From Paralysiella testudinis (lineage in GTDB: Bacteria; Pseudomonadota; Gammaproteobacteria; Burkholderiales; Neisseriaceae): 64,000 bases of DNA. The notes under the pieces were generated by a model that ran no database searches, had not been told where the DNA came from, and saw nothing but the letters and a program-made list of their open reading frames with translations. Shown here one piece after another: positions 53,005-58,546 of the stretch (the first letter of the stretch is position 1; every line of letters begins with the position of its first letter). The stretch lies in the NCBI RefSeq assembly GCF_016894345.1, contig NZ_CP069798.1:248001-312000 (forward strand), in the 5' to 3' direction. The translations under genes and the position numbers were made by a program.

Positions 53005-53808
53005 ATGAACAAAACCGCCCTTTTCACCTTGCTAGCACTGGCCTGCACCAGCGCCCATGCCCACCGCGTGTGGGTGAGCACCAACCACACCCACGGCGGT
53101 GATATTCTAAAAACAGAGCTGGGCTACGGCGAATTTCCGCACGCCGAGCCAATTGTGGCCGACCGCCTGCATATTTTCAGCAAGCCCATGCAGCTAATCA
53201 GCGGCAAAAACCGTCAAAACCTGGTGCAAAAAGGCGAGCACAATTATCAATACCAAAGCGCCAAGCCCGTGGCCGAGGGCAGCTATCTGGTTACTGCCGA
53301 ATACCAGCCCACGTTTTGGTCTAAAAACGCCGCAGGTTGGCAAAAAACCGACATGACCAAAATGACCGACGCCACCTATTGCGAACAAACGCGCATGTAC
53401 GGCAAAAACATTGTGAATGTGGGTCACGACAGCGCCGACACCGCGCCCATTATCCAGCCGGTAGGTCAAATGCTGGAAATCGTGCCGCTGGACAACCCGG
53501 CCAATGTGCAAGTGGGCCAGCGCTTTAAAGTAAAAGTGCTGTTTAAAGGCGAGCCGCTGGCGGGCGCCACCCTCACCGCCACCTTCGATGGCTTTGACAG
53601 CGCCGACCACAGCAAAACCCATAAAGTGGAAGCCCAAGCCTTTTCCGACACCACCGCTGCCGACGGCACAGTGAGCATCATCCCGCTGCGCCAAGGCTTC
53701 TGGAAAGCCAATGTGGAACACAAAGCCGATTATCCGGATCAAAAAGTGTGCCAAAAACTGGCCAACTACAGCACGCTCACCTTTGAAATCGGCCACGGCC
53801 ATCATTAA
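53005..53808 (+). CDS. Periplasmic DUF4198 protein (metal-uptake associated)
   Basis: 267 residues. A signal peptide (MNKTALFTLLALACTSAHA) leads directly into HRVWVSTNHTHGGD, the usual DUF4198 beginning with a potential N-terminal His metal site, and the end is GHGHH. The domain is beta-rich (HNYQYQSAKPVAEGSYLVTA, VQVGQRFKVKVLFKGEPLAG). DUF4198 proteins are linked to nickel or cobalt import operons. The Zur-like operator upstream suggests that here it responds to zinc. Start with AAGGA; ends at a DUS-pair terminator. Confidence 0.85.
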   Translation: MNKTALFTLLALACTSAHAHRVWVSTNHTHGGDILKTELGYGEFPHAEPIVADRLHIFSKPMQLISGKNRQNLVQKGEHNYQYQSAKPVAEGSYLVTAEYQPTFWSKNAAGWQKTDMTKMTDATYCEQTRMYGKNIVNVGHDSADTAPIIQPVGQMLEIVPLDNPANVQVGQRFKVKVLFKGEPLAGATLTATFDGFDSADHSKTHKVEAQAFSDTTAADGTVSIIPLRQGFWKANVEHKADYPDQKVCQKLANYSTLTFEIGHGHH

Positions 53809-53906: not shown

Positions 53907-54902
53907 TCAAACGGCCTCTACCGCTTCTTTAAATAAACGGTAAGAAGCAAACTGCAAAGCTTCATCATAAATATAGCTCACCGCCATGTATTCATTGGCA
54001 CGCAGGCGCGTGTGCAGCTCGCTAAATTGCGCCGCCAAGGTGGCGGGGCCGCCGATTAAAGAACAAGCAGTCATGCTGTTTACCGTGTGTTGCTCCATCT
54101 CGTTCCAGCGCCCGGCCATGCTGTTTACCGGCGGCGACAGCGGCATGCGGCTGTTGCGCACCACGTTGAGAAAAAATTGCTGCTGGCTGGTGGCCAGATA
54201 TTGCGCGGCTTGATCATCATCGGCGCCAATCACATTAAGCGCCACCATCACATACGGCTGCGCCAAAGTTGGCGAAGGCTGGAAATGGCTGCGGTAAATC
54301 GCCAGCGCCTCTTCGAGCATGCGCGGCGCAAAATGGGCGGCAAACACATACGGCAGCCCTTTTTCGGCGGCCAGATAAGCGCTTTCGGTGCTGGAGCCGA
54401 GGATATACAGCGGCACATGGGTGCCGATGCCGGGAAAGGCTTTCACATAACCTTGCCCGGCCGCATCGCCCAAATAACGCTGCAAAGCGGCCACATCTTC
54501 GGGAAAATCAAGCGAAGTTTCACGCTCGGCGCGACGCAAGGCTTGGGCAGTGAGGCGGTCGGTGCCGGGGGCGCGCCCCAAGCCCAAATCCACGCGCTCG
54601 GGATACAGTGTGGCCAGGGTGCCGTATTGTTCGGCCACAATCAGCGGGCTGTGATTGGGCAGCATCACGCCGCCGGAGCCCACGCGGATGCGCTTGGTGT
54701 GTTGCAGCGTGTGGCTGATTAAAATCGAAGTGGCGGAGCTGGCGAGCGAGGTGGTGTTGTGGTGCTCGGCAATCCAATAACGGCGATAGCCCAAGGCTTC
54801 GGTGTGCTGCGCCAGCGCCACCATGCTTGCCAAAGCCTGCTCGGTAGTGTGTCCGGCGCGCACGGGCACGAGGTTGAGCGCGGATACGGCGGGTGTGGTC
54901 AT
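53907..54902 (-). CDS. LLM-class flavin-dependent oxidoreductase (YhbW type)
   Basis: 331 residues, full-length TIM-barrel of the luciferase-like monooxygenase group. Family segments: [32 protein letters not shown] (about 39-50), [20 protein letters not shown] (about 67-86) and [14 protein letters not shown] (about 103-116). It binds FMN and oxidises an unknown substrate with a reductase partner. Start with AAAGGAAA. It follows the arsR gene by 157 bases, with a dyad identical in form to the one before arsR, so it is probably the target of that repressor. Confidence 0.9.
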
Positions 54903-54932
54903 TATTTTTTTCCTTTCAACGGCAACCTTCTT

Positions 54933-54944
54933 TTCAGACGGCCT
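54933..54944 (-). repeat. Uptake sequence of a different dialect (AGGCCGTCTGAA)
   Basis: TTCAGACGGCCT is the AG-DUS of other Neisseria species, two bases different from the local word. Its site just before the oxidoreductase start hints at imported DNA. Confidence 0.65.
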
Positions 54945-54981
54945 GTTGGGTTCAATTTACAATTCAGCGATAATTTCTTAT

Positions 54982-54997
54982 ATCTAAAAATATAGAT
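54982..54997. promoter_or_regulatory. Putative ArsR operator 1 (before the LLM gene)
   Basis: ATCTA-AAAATA-TAGAT, a dyad with 5-bp arms and a 6-base spacer, 80 bases upstream of the start. Matches operator 2. Confidence 0.6.
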
Positions 54998-55059
54998 TGG
55001 ATAAAAGCAAAATAATCCCGCGGCGGCGGGAAAGCAAGCAGGGTTTGCGCCCTGCCCGC

Positions 55060-55371
55060 TTAAATCTGTTCGCGCAATTGCTGCAATAAAGCTTCCACGC
55101 CGGCGCGATGGTAGCGGTAATAGGTCCATTTGCCGATGCGGCGCGATTCAAGCAAACCGGCTTTTTTTAAGGTGTTCAGATAGCCAGACACCACCGATTG
55201 CGCCAGCCCGGCTTTTTCGGCAATCAGCCCCACGCACACGCCGCCGGCAAAATCGTGCGCCACATCACAATGCATGTGTGCGGCAAAATGTTGCTGCGGG
55301 TTTTTCAGCCACAGCAGCATTTGGTAGCGGTATTCGTTGGCTAAGGCTTTGAAGGTGTCGGTGGGGTTCAT
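55060..55371 (-). CDS. ArsR-family transcriptional repressor
   Basis: 103 residues. A winged HTH: FKALANEYRYQMLLWL at the start, then GLIAEKAGLAQSVVSGYLNT (about 48-67, recognition helix) and LKKAGLLESRRIGKWTYYRY (wing). Between helices, MHCDVAHDFAGGVCVG holds two Cys that could sense metal or redox state. ArsR repressors usually bind dyads at their own promoter; such a dyad covers the region 15-30 bases before the ATG. No ribosome site is evident. Likely regulates itself and the LLM oxidoreductase downstream. Confidence 0.88.
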   Translation of the reverse strand: MNPTDTFKALANEYRYQMLLWLKNPQQHFAAHMHCDVAHDFAGGVCVGLIAEKAGLAQSVVSGYLNTLKKAGLLESRRIGKWTYYRYHRAGVEALLQQLREQI

Positions 55372-55385
55372 GGGCGCAATAATAA

Positions 55386-55401
55386 ATCTAGGTTTATAGA
55401 T
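55386..55401. promoter_or_regulatory. Putative ArsR operator 2 (arsR promoter)
   Basis: ATCTA-GGTTTA-TAGAT, the same arms and spacer as operator 1, 15 bases upstream of the arsR start. Confidence 0.65.
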
Positions 55402-55423
55402 ATGTCAATACATAGTCAACATA

Positions 55424-55465
55424 AAGGCTGCCTGAAAACAATGCAATCCGTTTTCAGGCAGCCTT
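55424..55465. terminator. DUS-pair terminator behind alr
   Basis: 16-bp stem AAGGCTGCCTGAAAAC and its complement with a 10-base loop, 24 bases after the alr stop. Confidence 0.8.
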
Positions 55466-55488
55466 ATATCGCGGATTAAATGGCGGTC

Positions 55489-56547
55489 TTATTCTTCATA
55501 AACAAAATGCGCCCGCTTCACATTGCACAGCAGCTCATAGGCAATGGTGCCGGCGGCAGCGGCCACTTCGTTGATGTGTATTACATCGCCCCACAGCTCC
55601 ACTTCGCTGCCGATGCCTTGGTGGTGGTCGGCCAGTTGCACGGTCATCATGTCCATGGATACGCGCCCGAGCAGGCGGCTGCGTTCGCCATCAATGGCCA
55701 CGGGCGTGCCGGTGCCGGCGTGGCGCGGGTAGCCGTCGGCATAGCCGCAAGCAATCAGGCCTGCGCGGGTGGATTGCGGGGTAACGAAGGCGGCGCCGTA
55801 GCCTATGGGCTCGCCCGGCGGCAATACGCGTTCGCCAAACACTTTGCTGCTCAGGCGCATCACCGGCAAAAAGCGGCTGTCGGCACCACCCAAGGGCGAG
55901 ACGCCGTAGAGCGCAATACCGGTGCGCCCCCAGTGTCGATGCGCGTTGGGGTGCGCCAAAATGGCGGCGGAATTGGCCACGCTGATGTCGCCGGGCAAAT
56001 CGGCCACCGCCAAGTCAAACACCGCCATTTGCTCGGCAGTCATGTTTTTGTGCGGCTCGTCGGCGCAGGCGAAGTGGGTCATGTTCACCACGGCCGCCAC
56101 TTGCGGGCTTTGGCTGAGCGCTTGGTGGGCGGGGGCGTAGTCGTGCGGGAAAAAACCGGCGCGGTGCATGCCGGAATCCATTTTCAGCCACACGGTGACC
56201 GGATGTTGCCAGCAGTGCGCCAGCAAGGCTTCCAGCTGCCAGGCGTTTTGCACCACCGGCCACAGGCGGTGTTGATCGACCAGGGCATACTCGGCAGCTT
56301 CAAACACGCCTTCCAGCAACACAATCGGCTGGGTAATGCCGGCTTCGCGCAAGGTGAGCGCTTCTTCAATGGCGGCCACGGCAAAGCCGTCGGCCAAATC
56401 GGCCAGTGCTTGGGCGCAGCGCACGGCACCATGGCCGTAGGCATTGGCTTTGAGCACCGCCAGCATTTTGCCGCCGTGCATGGCTTTGAGGGTTTGGTAG
56501 TTTTGGCGCAAATGGTTTAAGCGGATATGGGCAATCAGCGGGCGCAT
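55489..56547 (-). CDS. alr: Alanine racemase
   Basis: 352 residues from the ATG at 56547 (MRPLIAHIRLNHLRQN); a TTG 12 codons upstream is less likely. A PLP enzyme that interconverts L- and D-alanine for the cell wall. The lysine is in VLKANAYGHG (about 32-41), GMHRAGF and TGIALYGVSP follow, and the opposing catalytic Tyr lies in PIGYGAAF (about 250-257) with SMDMMTV beyond. Lies 71 bases beyond the dadA stop on the same strand, with a DUS-pair hairpin between them. In many bacteria dadA and a catabolic alr (dadX) are linked as here, so this may be the catabolic enzyme. Confidence 0.94.
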   Translation of the reverse strand: MRPLIAHIRLNHLRQNYQTLKAMHGGKMLAVLKANAYGHGAVRCAQALADLADGFAVAAIEEALTLREAGITQPIVLLEGVFEAAEYALVDQHRLWPVVQNAWQLEALLAHCWQHPVTVWLKMDSGMHRAGFFPHDYAPAHQALSQSPQVAAVVNMTHFACADEPHKNMTAEQMAVFDLAVADLPGDISVANSAAILAHPNAHRHWGRTGIALYGVSPLGGADSRFLPVMRLSSKVFGERVLPPGEPIGYGAAFVTPQSTRAGLIACGYADGYPRHAGTGTPVAIDGERSRLLGRVSMDMMTVQLADHHQGIGSEVELWGDVIHINEVAAAAGTIAYELLCNVKRAHFVYEE

Positions 56548-56592
56548 GGGCAGATACTCGGTGTGGGTGGTGAATACAGACAAATCGGTATT

Positions 56593-56647
56593 AAAACCCT
56601 TTCAGGCAGCCTTATCTTATACAAAATAGGCTGCCTGAAAGGGTTTT
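56593..56647. terminator. DUS-pair terminator between dadA and alr
   Basis: Perfect 20-bp stem AAAACCCTTTCAGGCAGCCT and its complement, 15-base loop, just behind the dadA stop. It would separate dadA from alr transcription. Confidence 0.85.
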
Positions 56648-56653
56648 TAACAT

Positions 56654-57913
56654 TTAAACATAGCGCACCAGCGACAAATCGCTGGTTTCGATTTCCGGCT
56701 TCACACCGCCAATCAAATCGGCCAGAATTTTGCCCGAGCCTAAGCTCATGGTCCAGCCCAAGGTGCCGTGGCCGGTGTTGAGCGATAAGTTGGCATAGCG
56801 GGTGGCGCCGATTAAAGGGGTGCTGTCCGGTGTCATCGGGCGCAGGCCGCTCCAGAAGGTGGCGGCTTCGGTGTTGCCCGCACCGGGGAATAAATCGTTG
56901 ACCACCAAATCCAGCGTGGCTTTGCGTTTGGGGTTCAGGCGGATGGGATAGCCGGACAATTCGGCCATGCCGCCCACGCGGATGCGTTGGTCGAAGCGGG
57001 TAATCGCCACTTTATAGGTTTCGTCGAGCACGGTAGACACCGGCGCGGCCGCTTCGTTGGTAATCGGCAGGGTAATCGAATAGCCTTTTACCGGATACAC
57101 CGGCACATTGATGTGCAGGGTTTTGAGCAGCGGGCGGCTAAAGCTGCCCAAGGCGCAAACGTAGTGGTCGGCCTCGAAGCGCTGGCCATTGGCCACCACG
57201 GCTTTAATGTGGGTGCCGTCGGCTTCGATGGCATCAATACGGTGGCGGTACAGAAAAGTAACACCCGCTGCCGCGCATTTGGCCGCCAAGCGCTGGGTAA
57301 ACATATGGCAGTCGCCAGTGGCATCGTTGGGCAAGTGCAAAGCACCGGCCAGCTTGCCCGCCACCGCCGCCAGTGCAGGCTCATATTGCGCCACATCGGC
57401 CGGGTTGTTTACCACCGTGAGCGGCACACCGTATTCTTGCAGCACCGCAATGTCTTTTTTGGCGGCGTTCACTTCTTTTTCGGTGCGGAAAATCTGCAAC
57501 GTGCCGCGATGGCGGCCTTCAAAGCTTAAATCCGGCTGCTCTGCGGCCATGCGGCGGAACATTTCACGGCTGTATTCCGACACACGCACCATGCGCTCTT
57601 TATTGGTGGTGTAGCGGCGGGTATTGCAGTTTTGCCACATCTGCCACAGCCATTGCCATTGATACAGGCTGCCATCGGGGCGCAGCAGCAGCGGCGAATG
57701 CGGCTTGGTCATCCATTTCAGCGCTTTTTGCGGCATTCCCGGCGCCGCCCACGGCGTGGTGTAGCCGTAAGACAACTGCCCGGCATTGGCAAAGCTGGTT
57801 TCCATCGCCGCCTGGTCTTCGCGCTCCAACACCGTAACCTCATGCCCGGCCTGCGCCAAATACCACGCCGTGCTCACGCCCACCACACCGGCGCCCAGTA
57901 TCAATACTTTCAT
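56654..57913 (-). CDS. dadA: D-amino acid dehydrogenase small subunit
   Basis: 419 residues. An FAD enzyme at the inner membrane that oxidises D-alanine and other D-amino acids to keto acids, passing electrons to quinone. Seen: [20 protein letters not shown] (FAD fold), [20 protein letters not shown] (about 38-57), [14 protein letters not shown], and the C-terminal [14 protein letters not shown] and [20 protein letters not shown]. Start with AAGGAG. Divergent from lrp; the usual pathway is Alr then DadA under Lrp control. Confidence 0.95.
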
Positions 57914-58005
57914 CTCATCTCCTTATGATGCGTGTCTGTTATTATTATTTTGTGCCCTGCACAAATTACGCTAGTGAAAGCATATAGTGTAAAATGTTTA
58001 TTTGA

Positions 58006-58016
58006 GTGAATTTCAC
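58006..58016. promoter_or_regulatory. Dyad between dadA and lrp, possible Lrp site
   Basis: GTGAA-T-TTCAC, a perfect dyad in an AT-rich intergenic region, with partial GTGAAA copies near 57974 and 58036. Placement between divergent dadA and lrp suggests an Lrp-type operator; the consensus is weak, so this is tentative. Confidence 0.4.
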
Positions 58017-58081
58017 CATATTTACACCAAAAATAGTGAAATTGATTTTATTAACCACCCAAAAACAGGATTTTTATCAAA

Positions 58082-58546
58082 ATGCACGCTTGCGACAAAA
58101 TCGACCTTAAAATTTTGACTTTACTGCAAAAAAACGCCCGCATCACCATGACCGAGCTGGCCGAAAGCGTGGGTTTGTCCACCACTCCGGTAACCGAGCG
58201 CGTGCGGCGCATGGAGCGCGACGGCGTAATCAGCGGCTACCACGCCCGCCTCAACCCGCAGGCGCTGGGGCAGCATTTGTTGGTGTTTGTGGAAATCAAG
58301 CTGCGTTCCAAATCGGGCAATATTTTTGAAGACTTCCGCCGCGAAGTGATGCACATCCCGCAAATTATGGAATGCCACTTGGTTTCCGGCGAATACGACT
58401 ACTTAATCAAAGTGCGCCTGCCCAATATGAATGCCTACCGCGATATGCTGGGCAGCATTTTGCTGCAACTGCCCGCCGCTGCGGAGAGCCGCAGCTATGT
58501 GGTGATGGAAGAAGTGAAAGAGGATTTTTTCTTGAATTTGGGGTAA
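58082..58546 (+). CDS. lrp: Lrp/AsnC-family regulator
   Basis: 154 residues. N-terminal HTH: DLKILTLLQKNARITMTELA then VGLSTTPVTERVRRMERDGV (about 26-45) and ISGYHARLNP; the C-terminal RAM ligand-binding domain runs from ~65 (VFVEIKLRSKS, MECHLVSGEYDYLIKVRLPN). It resembles Lrp-type activators of dadA that sense alanine or leucine. Divergent from dadA with a 168-base shared promoter region. A Correia-like repeat begins right after its stop. Confidence 0.93.
   Translation: MHACDKIDLKILTLLQKNARITMTELAESVGLSTTPVTERVRRMERDGVISGYHARLNPQALGQHLLVFVEIKLRSKSGNIFEDFRREVMHIPQIMECHLVSGEYDYLIKVRLPNMNAYRDMLGSILLQLPAAAESRSYVVMEEVKEDFFLNLG

Follow-up and report, generated by a model that had tools for sequence, protein, structure and literature searches.

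The closest described systems are PyeR and CyeR. PyeR (PA4354) of Pseudomonas aeruginosa is described as an ArsR-family autorepressor whose gene shares the operon pyeR-pyeM-xenB with those for an MFS pump and for a xenobiotic reductase of the flavin type. It is reported to repress its own pyeRM-xenB operon, which is induced by HOCl and protects against it (PMC7950407). In Corynebacterium glutamicum, CyeR is an ArsR-type redox sensor that controls the OYE-family gene cye1 (OYE, Old Yellow Enzyme) through one Cys equivalent to Cys41 of RexT, and RexT of Nostoc carries this reactive, peroxidatic Cys41 on helix 3, close beside the wing (PMC8960804). On the enzyme side, E. coli YhbW is reported to rise about 77-fold in vanillin and to belong to the SoxRS regulon; in the same source, the effect of its knockout is small and the purified protein was inactive on vanillin in the assay (PMC6561319).

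Here we compare these systems with a gene pair in a stretch of 64,000 nucleotides from Paralysiella testudinis (the window). On the minus strand, arsR (55060..55371) encodes an ArsR/SmtB-family repressor of 103 aa. It is followed on the same strand, after 157 bp, by a gene for an MsnO8-family LLM class oxidoreductase of 331 aa (luciferase-like, YhbW-related; 53907..54902; TIGR03558). The repressor belongs to the ArsR/SmtB family, as its winged-helix ArsR domain scores over the curated cut-offs, just passing NF033788 (metalloregulator ArsR/SmtB family; 59.1 bits, cut-off 55) and passing Pfam HTH_5 (24.5, cut-off 22). Its fold matches are headed by ArsR-family structures, and its recognition helix reads GLAQSVVSGYL. 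The NCBIfam equivalog for the BigR/SqrR sulfide sensors (BigR) is not reached (24.3 bits, cut-off 155), and the SdpR cut-off is also far away. The enzyme scores 413.2 bits against TIGR03558 (MsnO8 LLM; curated cut-off 166.95) and 358.5 bits against the YhbW equivalog PRK10508, below the cut-off of 540 and thus outside that equivalog. Around the pair, a DUF4198 protein gene (53005-53808) is convergent with the LLM gene, and genes for an alanine racemase, a D-amino acid dehydrogenase and an Lrp-like regulator (55489-58546) likely form a D-alanine catabolism cluster.

The first-pass annotation of this DNA had pointed out an exact ATCTA-N6-TAGAT dyad before each of the two genes, and both were found again. 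Predicted operator 1 (55386..55401; ATCTAGGTTTATAGAT on the plus and ATCTATAAACCTAGAT on the minus strand) lies before arsR, and predicted operator 2 (54982..54997; ATCTAAAAATATAGAT on the plus and ATCTATATTTTTAGAT on the minus strand) before the LLM gene. Their placement stands, whereas the spacings given at that time, 15 and 80 bases, need correction, since the gaps to the start codons measure 14 bases for arsR and 79 for the LLM gene. No other exact copy (0 mismatches) occurs in the window. Only the exact copies are informative there, because dyads with up to two mismatches number 10 against 7.3 expected from shuffles. The genome-wide search for further sites that had been suggested was carried out over 2,905,699 bases; it returned three exact dyads, hence one extra, and no copy of the reversed control motif. 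The third dyad (G000:C1:224665; L001 1501-1516) is located 17 bp before an ORF of 129 aa, for which Pfam gave no match at 1e-5. In genome G037 (L181), a similar ORF is preceded by the near-identical dyad ATCTACATTTGTAGAT, also at 17 bp. The third site therefore looks like an operator that belongs to this small, unrelated ORF itself, likely another repressor, and was rejected as a member of the regulon.

Across 83 genomes of the window's family, the seven with a strong arsR homologue contain 16 exact dyads, of which 11 fall at arsR loci; the 76 genomes without this arsR contain 96, a background of about 1.3 per genome. In one genome with this arsR, a further ORF is preceded by an exact dyad at a distance of 89 bp (L184; G020:C1:6987). 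We take this ORF to resemble a sugar O-acetyltransferase, and it is possibly an extra target of the repressor. Our literature search, which included the motif itself, returned no description of the operator motif; an earlier account may exist in the original PyeR and CyeR papers.

Both dyad positions were followed through 88 loci, comprising the closest 80 of 200 related loci and 8 loci of the window's family. One of the latter (L004) is the window itself, so that 87 of the 88 are other places. The closest 80 of 200 stem from Moraxella, Bacillales, Actinomycetes, Selenomonas and one Erysipelotrichaceae MAG, and 33 of them from Paenibacillus. The 130 bp upstream of arsR contain a dyad with no more than one mismatch in 72 of these 88 loci and lack one at this stringency in 16 (51 exact, 21 with one mismatch, 10 with two, 6 with more), while dinucleotide shuffles gave a mean of 0.9 and a maximum of 4. 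Just after arsR, between 20 bases before and 320 bases after its stop, a second dyad with at most one mismatch is present in 51 loci of the same set and absent in 37 (shuffle mean 1.8, maximum 6). Outside the window's family, again within the closest 80 of 200, at least one locus carries operator 1 in 18 of 23 genus groups and operator 2 in 16 of 23. The nearest relative (L005, from genome G047) has an arsR that is 83% identical and an LLM gene that is 89% identical to those of the window; its gap between the two genes is more than 200 bp longer, and both dyads are kept with one mismatch each.

Two sets of controls address how specific the dyad is. Among 15 ArsR matches in the family, seven were weak (E 3e-5 to 7e-4) and were treated as paralogues; they serve as controls here, together with three further ArsR-type genes of the window's own genome. 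None of these ten has a dyad with up to one mismatch in the 400 bp upstream, and we thus reject the dyad as a general feature of ArsR genes. The LLM control started from the 32 genomes of the family in which an LLM was matched, and 30 loci were scanned (matches without a locus were omitted). Here, the dyad is present in both arsR-linked loci, at -95 in one and -86 in the other, as opposed to one of 28 LLM genes without a linked arsR (L136, at -235; within 250 bp), so that a dyad at every LLM gene is likewise rejected.

A consensus scan places the arsR promoter at 55379..55408 on the minus strand (TTGACA, an 18-nt spacer and TATTAT, matching 11 of 12 consensus positions); sites of this grade arise 0.9 times on average in shuffles of the region. 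Operator 1 sits between its TTGACA and TATTAT. In most Bacillales loci, TTTACA and TATAAT flank the dyad, which takes up the whole spacer. With the upstream dyad between the -35 and -10 hexamers, autorepression of arsR is therefore the natural reading. The end of operator 2 overlaps a -10-like hexamer, TATAAG, and a hexamer of this kind (TATAAG/TATAAA) abuts the second dyad in the window as well as in L005. This second promoter candidate has a poor -35 and was missed by the consensus scan. Between arsR and operator 2 lies a weak terminator-like hairpin, TCCCGCCGCCGCGGGA then TTATTTTGCT (55016..55031, minus strand); four terminator-like sites were found in the region against 1.3 expected.

In its 5' leader, the LLM gene carries an uptake-sequence-like 12-mer, AGGCCGTCTGAA (54933..54944, minus strand), in a dialect unlike the usual one of the genome, which holds 25 copies of it on both strands against 2028 of AGGCTGCCTGAA. 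Genome G047 has just 9 copies of AGGCTGCCTGAA, and AGGCCGTCTGAA is present at its arsR-LLM locus. If the two words represent two uptake-sequence dialects, as we assume, a bacterium using the other dialect is a possible source of the cassette, and AGGCCGTCTGAA may be a mark of this DNA transfer. Separately, an inverted pair of AGGCTGCCTGAA words lies between arsR and the alanine racemase gene (55424-55466) and is likely a terminator-type uptake-sequence hairpin.

What the repressor might sense can be narrowed down from its cysteines. Two had been proposed to detect an electrophile or a metal. Both are present, but only Cys46 is conserved: in an ArsR alignment of 89 rows, which counts the window twice, it occurs in 88 rows (Ser replaces it in L009), whereas Cys35 is found in only 3, and a two-cysteine sensor is rejected on this ground. 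In an alignment with Lmo1102, Cys46 falls on the first Cys of that protein's CVC metal motif. The second CVC Cys corresponds to Gly48, which is shared by 85 of the 89 rows, and the CXC-type Cys pair of classical metal sensors is absent from helix 3 (C46-V47-G48). In a structure model (pLDDT 91.1), Cys46 directly precedes helix 47-54. The repressor thus has the one conserved Cys at helix 3 of PyeR/CyeR-type sensors, the equivalence to the Cys of CyeR being taken from PMC8960804. The near-invariant Cys46, the unconserved Cys35 and Gly48 favour the electrophile part of the original proposal over its metal or arsenical part, and this residue pattern points to a one-Cys thiol/electrophile sensor resembling PyeR and CyeR.

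The genes that accompany the repressor vary. In the 88 loci (closest 80 of 200 plus 8 of the family), the next same-strand gene encodes an MFS protein in 49 cases, an OYE in 8, an MsnO8 LLM in 5, a radical SAM protein in 4, a TIGR03571 LLM in 2, a DsbA-like protein in 2 and others in 6; in 10 loci the next gene is on the opposite strand and in 2 there is none. Partners were clustered via BLAST and the cluster names rest on tested members (one for MFS, four for OYE, seven for MsnO8 LLM and one for each of the others), the one MFS member tested being nearest to Cmx/CmrA, under the cut-off. A nitroreductase gene is found near arsR in L020 and L025. We also considered a more distant same-class set of 14 genomes besides the window's own, defined by a best listed match of E <1e-18; a second such match in G244 (C11) and all weaker matches were left out of the counts, L152 and L153 having been inspected in the LLM scan only. 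In 8 of these 14 loci an OYE gene is adjacent, and two others of the class have a TIGR03571-like LLM nearby (L170) or an MDR-type dehydrogenase (L169). Plasmid relatives, of which 5 of 322 records were examined (L103-L107), neighbour an alkene reductase (L105), a zinc-dependent alcohol dehydrogenase (L103) or an MDR oxidoreductase (L104), with no such partner among the listed genes of L106 and L107. The window arsR has no linked OYE or MFS gene. Testing of the partners turned up neither an arsenical nor a metal transporter, nor was any partner identified as a thioredoxin gene. Because the two-site arrangement recurs in distant bacteria with varied detoxifying enzymes and pumps, we see in the pair a seemingly genuine stress-response unit, of a kind already known in part.

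The positions of the dyads, the overlap with the arsR promoter, the conservation and the single conserved Cys lead us to regard the locus as, quite probably, an autoregulated thiol-sensing stress module. The idea that matched operators link the repressor to the enzyme is strongly supported by the conservation of the sites, their position nested in a promoter and the ArsR and LLM controls. A reduced ArsR dimer would bind both dyads and block RNA polymerase both at the arsR promoter and at another one that would serve the LLM gene. Oxidation or alkylation of Cys46, at the start of helix 3, would loosen DNA binding, upon which arsR and the LLM gene would both be expressed. The flavin-type enzyme might then help to remove or tolerate the reactive compound, perhaps a quinone, an enone, an aldehyde or an HOCl-type oxidant; detoxification by the LLM enzyme is plausible. 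Operator 2 would provide the LLM gene with its own repressible promoter, beyond the weak hairpin between the genes.

Could the dyads have arisen by chance? Exact sites do occur about 1.3 times per genome even where this arsR is missing. Their conservation before and after arsR over several phyla, far above the shuffle maxima, makes chance untenable as an explanation, as the first-pass annotation had anticipated, and we assign it a negligible probability. The second dyad has an alternative reading. It may be a secondary operator of one arsR-LLM transcript, acting as a roadblock or through looping without any second promoter. The poor -35 at this site and the short distance between two genes on the same strand would fit such an arrangement. 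Against it speak the hairpin between the genes and the -10-like hexamer, which directly adjoins the dyad in L005 as it does in the window. We consider a single transcript possible, if on balance doubtful.

The nature of the signal offers two further alternatives. A classical ArsR/SmtB metalloregulator would bind As(III), Zn or Cd through a Cys pair, and both the NF033788 match, just above its cut-off, and the alignment of Cys46 with the CVC motif lean in this direction. Against this, the second CVC position is a Gly, Cys35 is hardly ever shared, and the partner genes encode flavin reductases, MFS pumps and DsbA-like proteins with no arsenical or metal transporter among those tested, which makes metal or metalloid sensing highly improbable. 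Multidrug regulators usually bind ligands, and an MFS exporter is the commonest next gene. The repressor might thus be a two-site autoregulator with a pocket for a non-reactive xenobiotic on which the pump or enzyme acts, and with Cys46 in a structural role. A near-invariant single Cys next to flavin and thiol-redox enzymes suits reactive compounds better, and we regard a non-reactive ligand as unlikely, albeit less so than a metal.

Residue 60, in the recognition helix of the repressor, may bear on operator choice. Among 107 loci, the 83 with V60 comprise 72 with ATCTA/TAGAT (up to one mismatch), 10 with ATCG/CGAT-like sites and 1 with neither, whereas the 24 with T60 comprise 16 with ATCG-N8-CGAT, none with ATCTA/TAGAT and 8 with neither. 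This split was found post hoc and tracks phylogeny and taxonomy, and we therefore put it forward as a hypothesis on DNA recognition and not as proof. A joint reading would be a cross-phylum family of one-Cys ArsR repressors with a fixed cassette, in which V60 or T60 switches between the ATCTA/TAGAT and ATCG/CGAT operator classes. The cassette would consist of a promoter-embedded operator, the repressor, another operator similar to the first and an exchangeable gene for detoxification (LLM, OYE, a nitroreductase nearby, DsbA-like or a pump). We see this joint reading as evenly poised between right and wrong.

Many repressors of a widespread group bear no annotation beyond ArsR, and for this group the analysis predicts the operator, the promoter and the residue that does the sensing. 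It would also tie the MsnO8/YhbW LLM family to the defence against electrophiles and oxidants. A swappable effector behind fixed operators would make the regulons of such repressors readable from sequence.

How does the locus compare with the described systems? Like PyeR, same-class relatives of the window ArsR often stand beside an OYE; unlike PyeR, the window has an MsnO8 LLM as effector and no pump behind it. CyeR relies on one Cys, as proposed here, but controls a different enzyme, and it is reported to form a disulfide between this Cys and another one at a distance of seven residues (PMC8960804), whereas the second Cys of the window repressor is unconserved. RexT has the ArsR fold in common with our repressor; it is thioredoxin-linked and carries the vicinal pair Cys40-Cys41 where the window protein has a single conserved Cys. 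YhbW is placed under SoxRS in PMC6561319, while the window LLM lies beside a linked ArsR. The operator class of the window, ATCTA/TAGAT, also differs from the ATCG/CGAT of the S57/T60 relatives. The locus is thus close in kind to PyeR and CyeR, and what is new is the LLM effector, the twin operators across phyla and a residue, V60/T60, that tracks the operator class.
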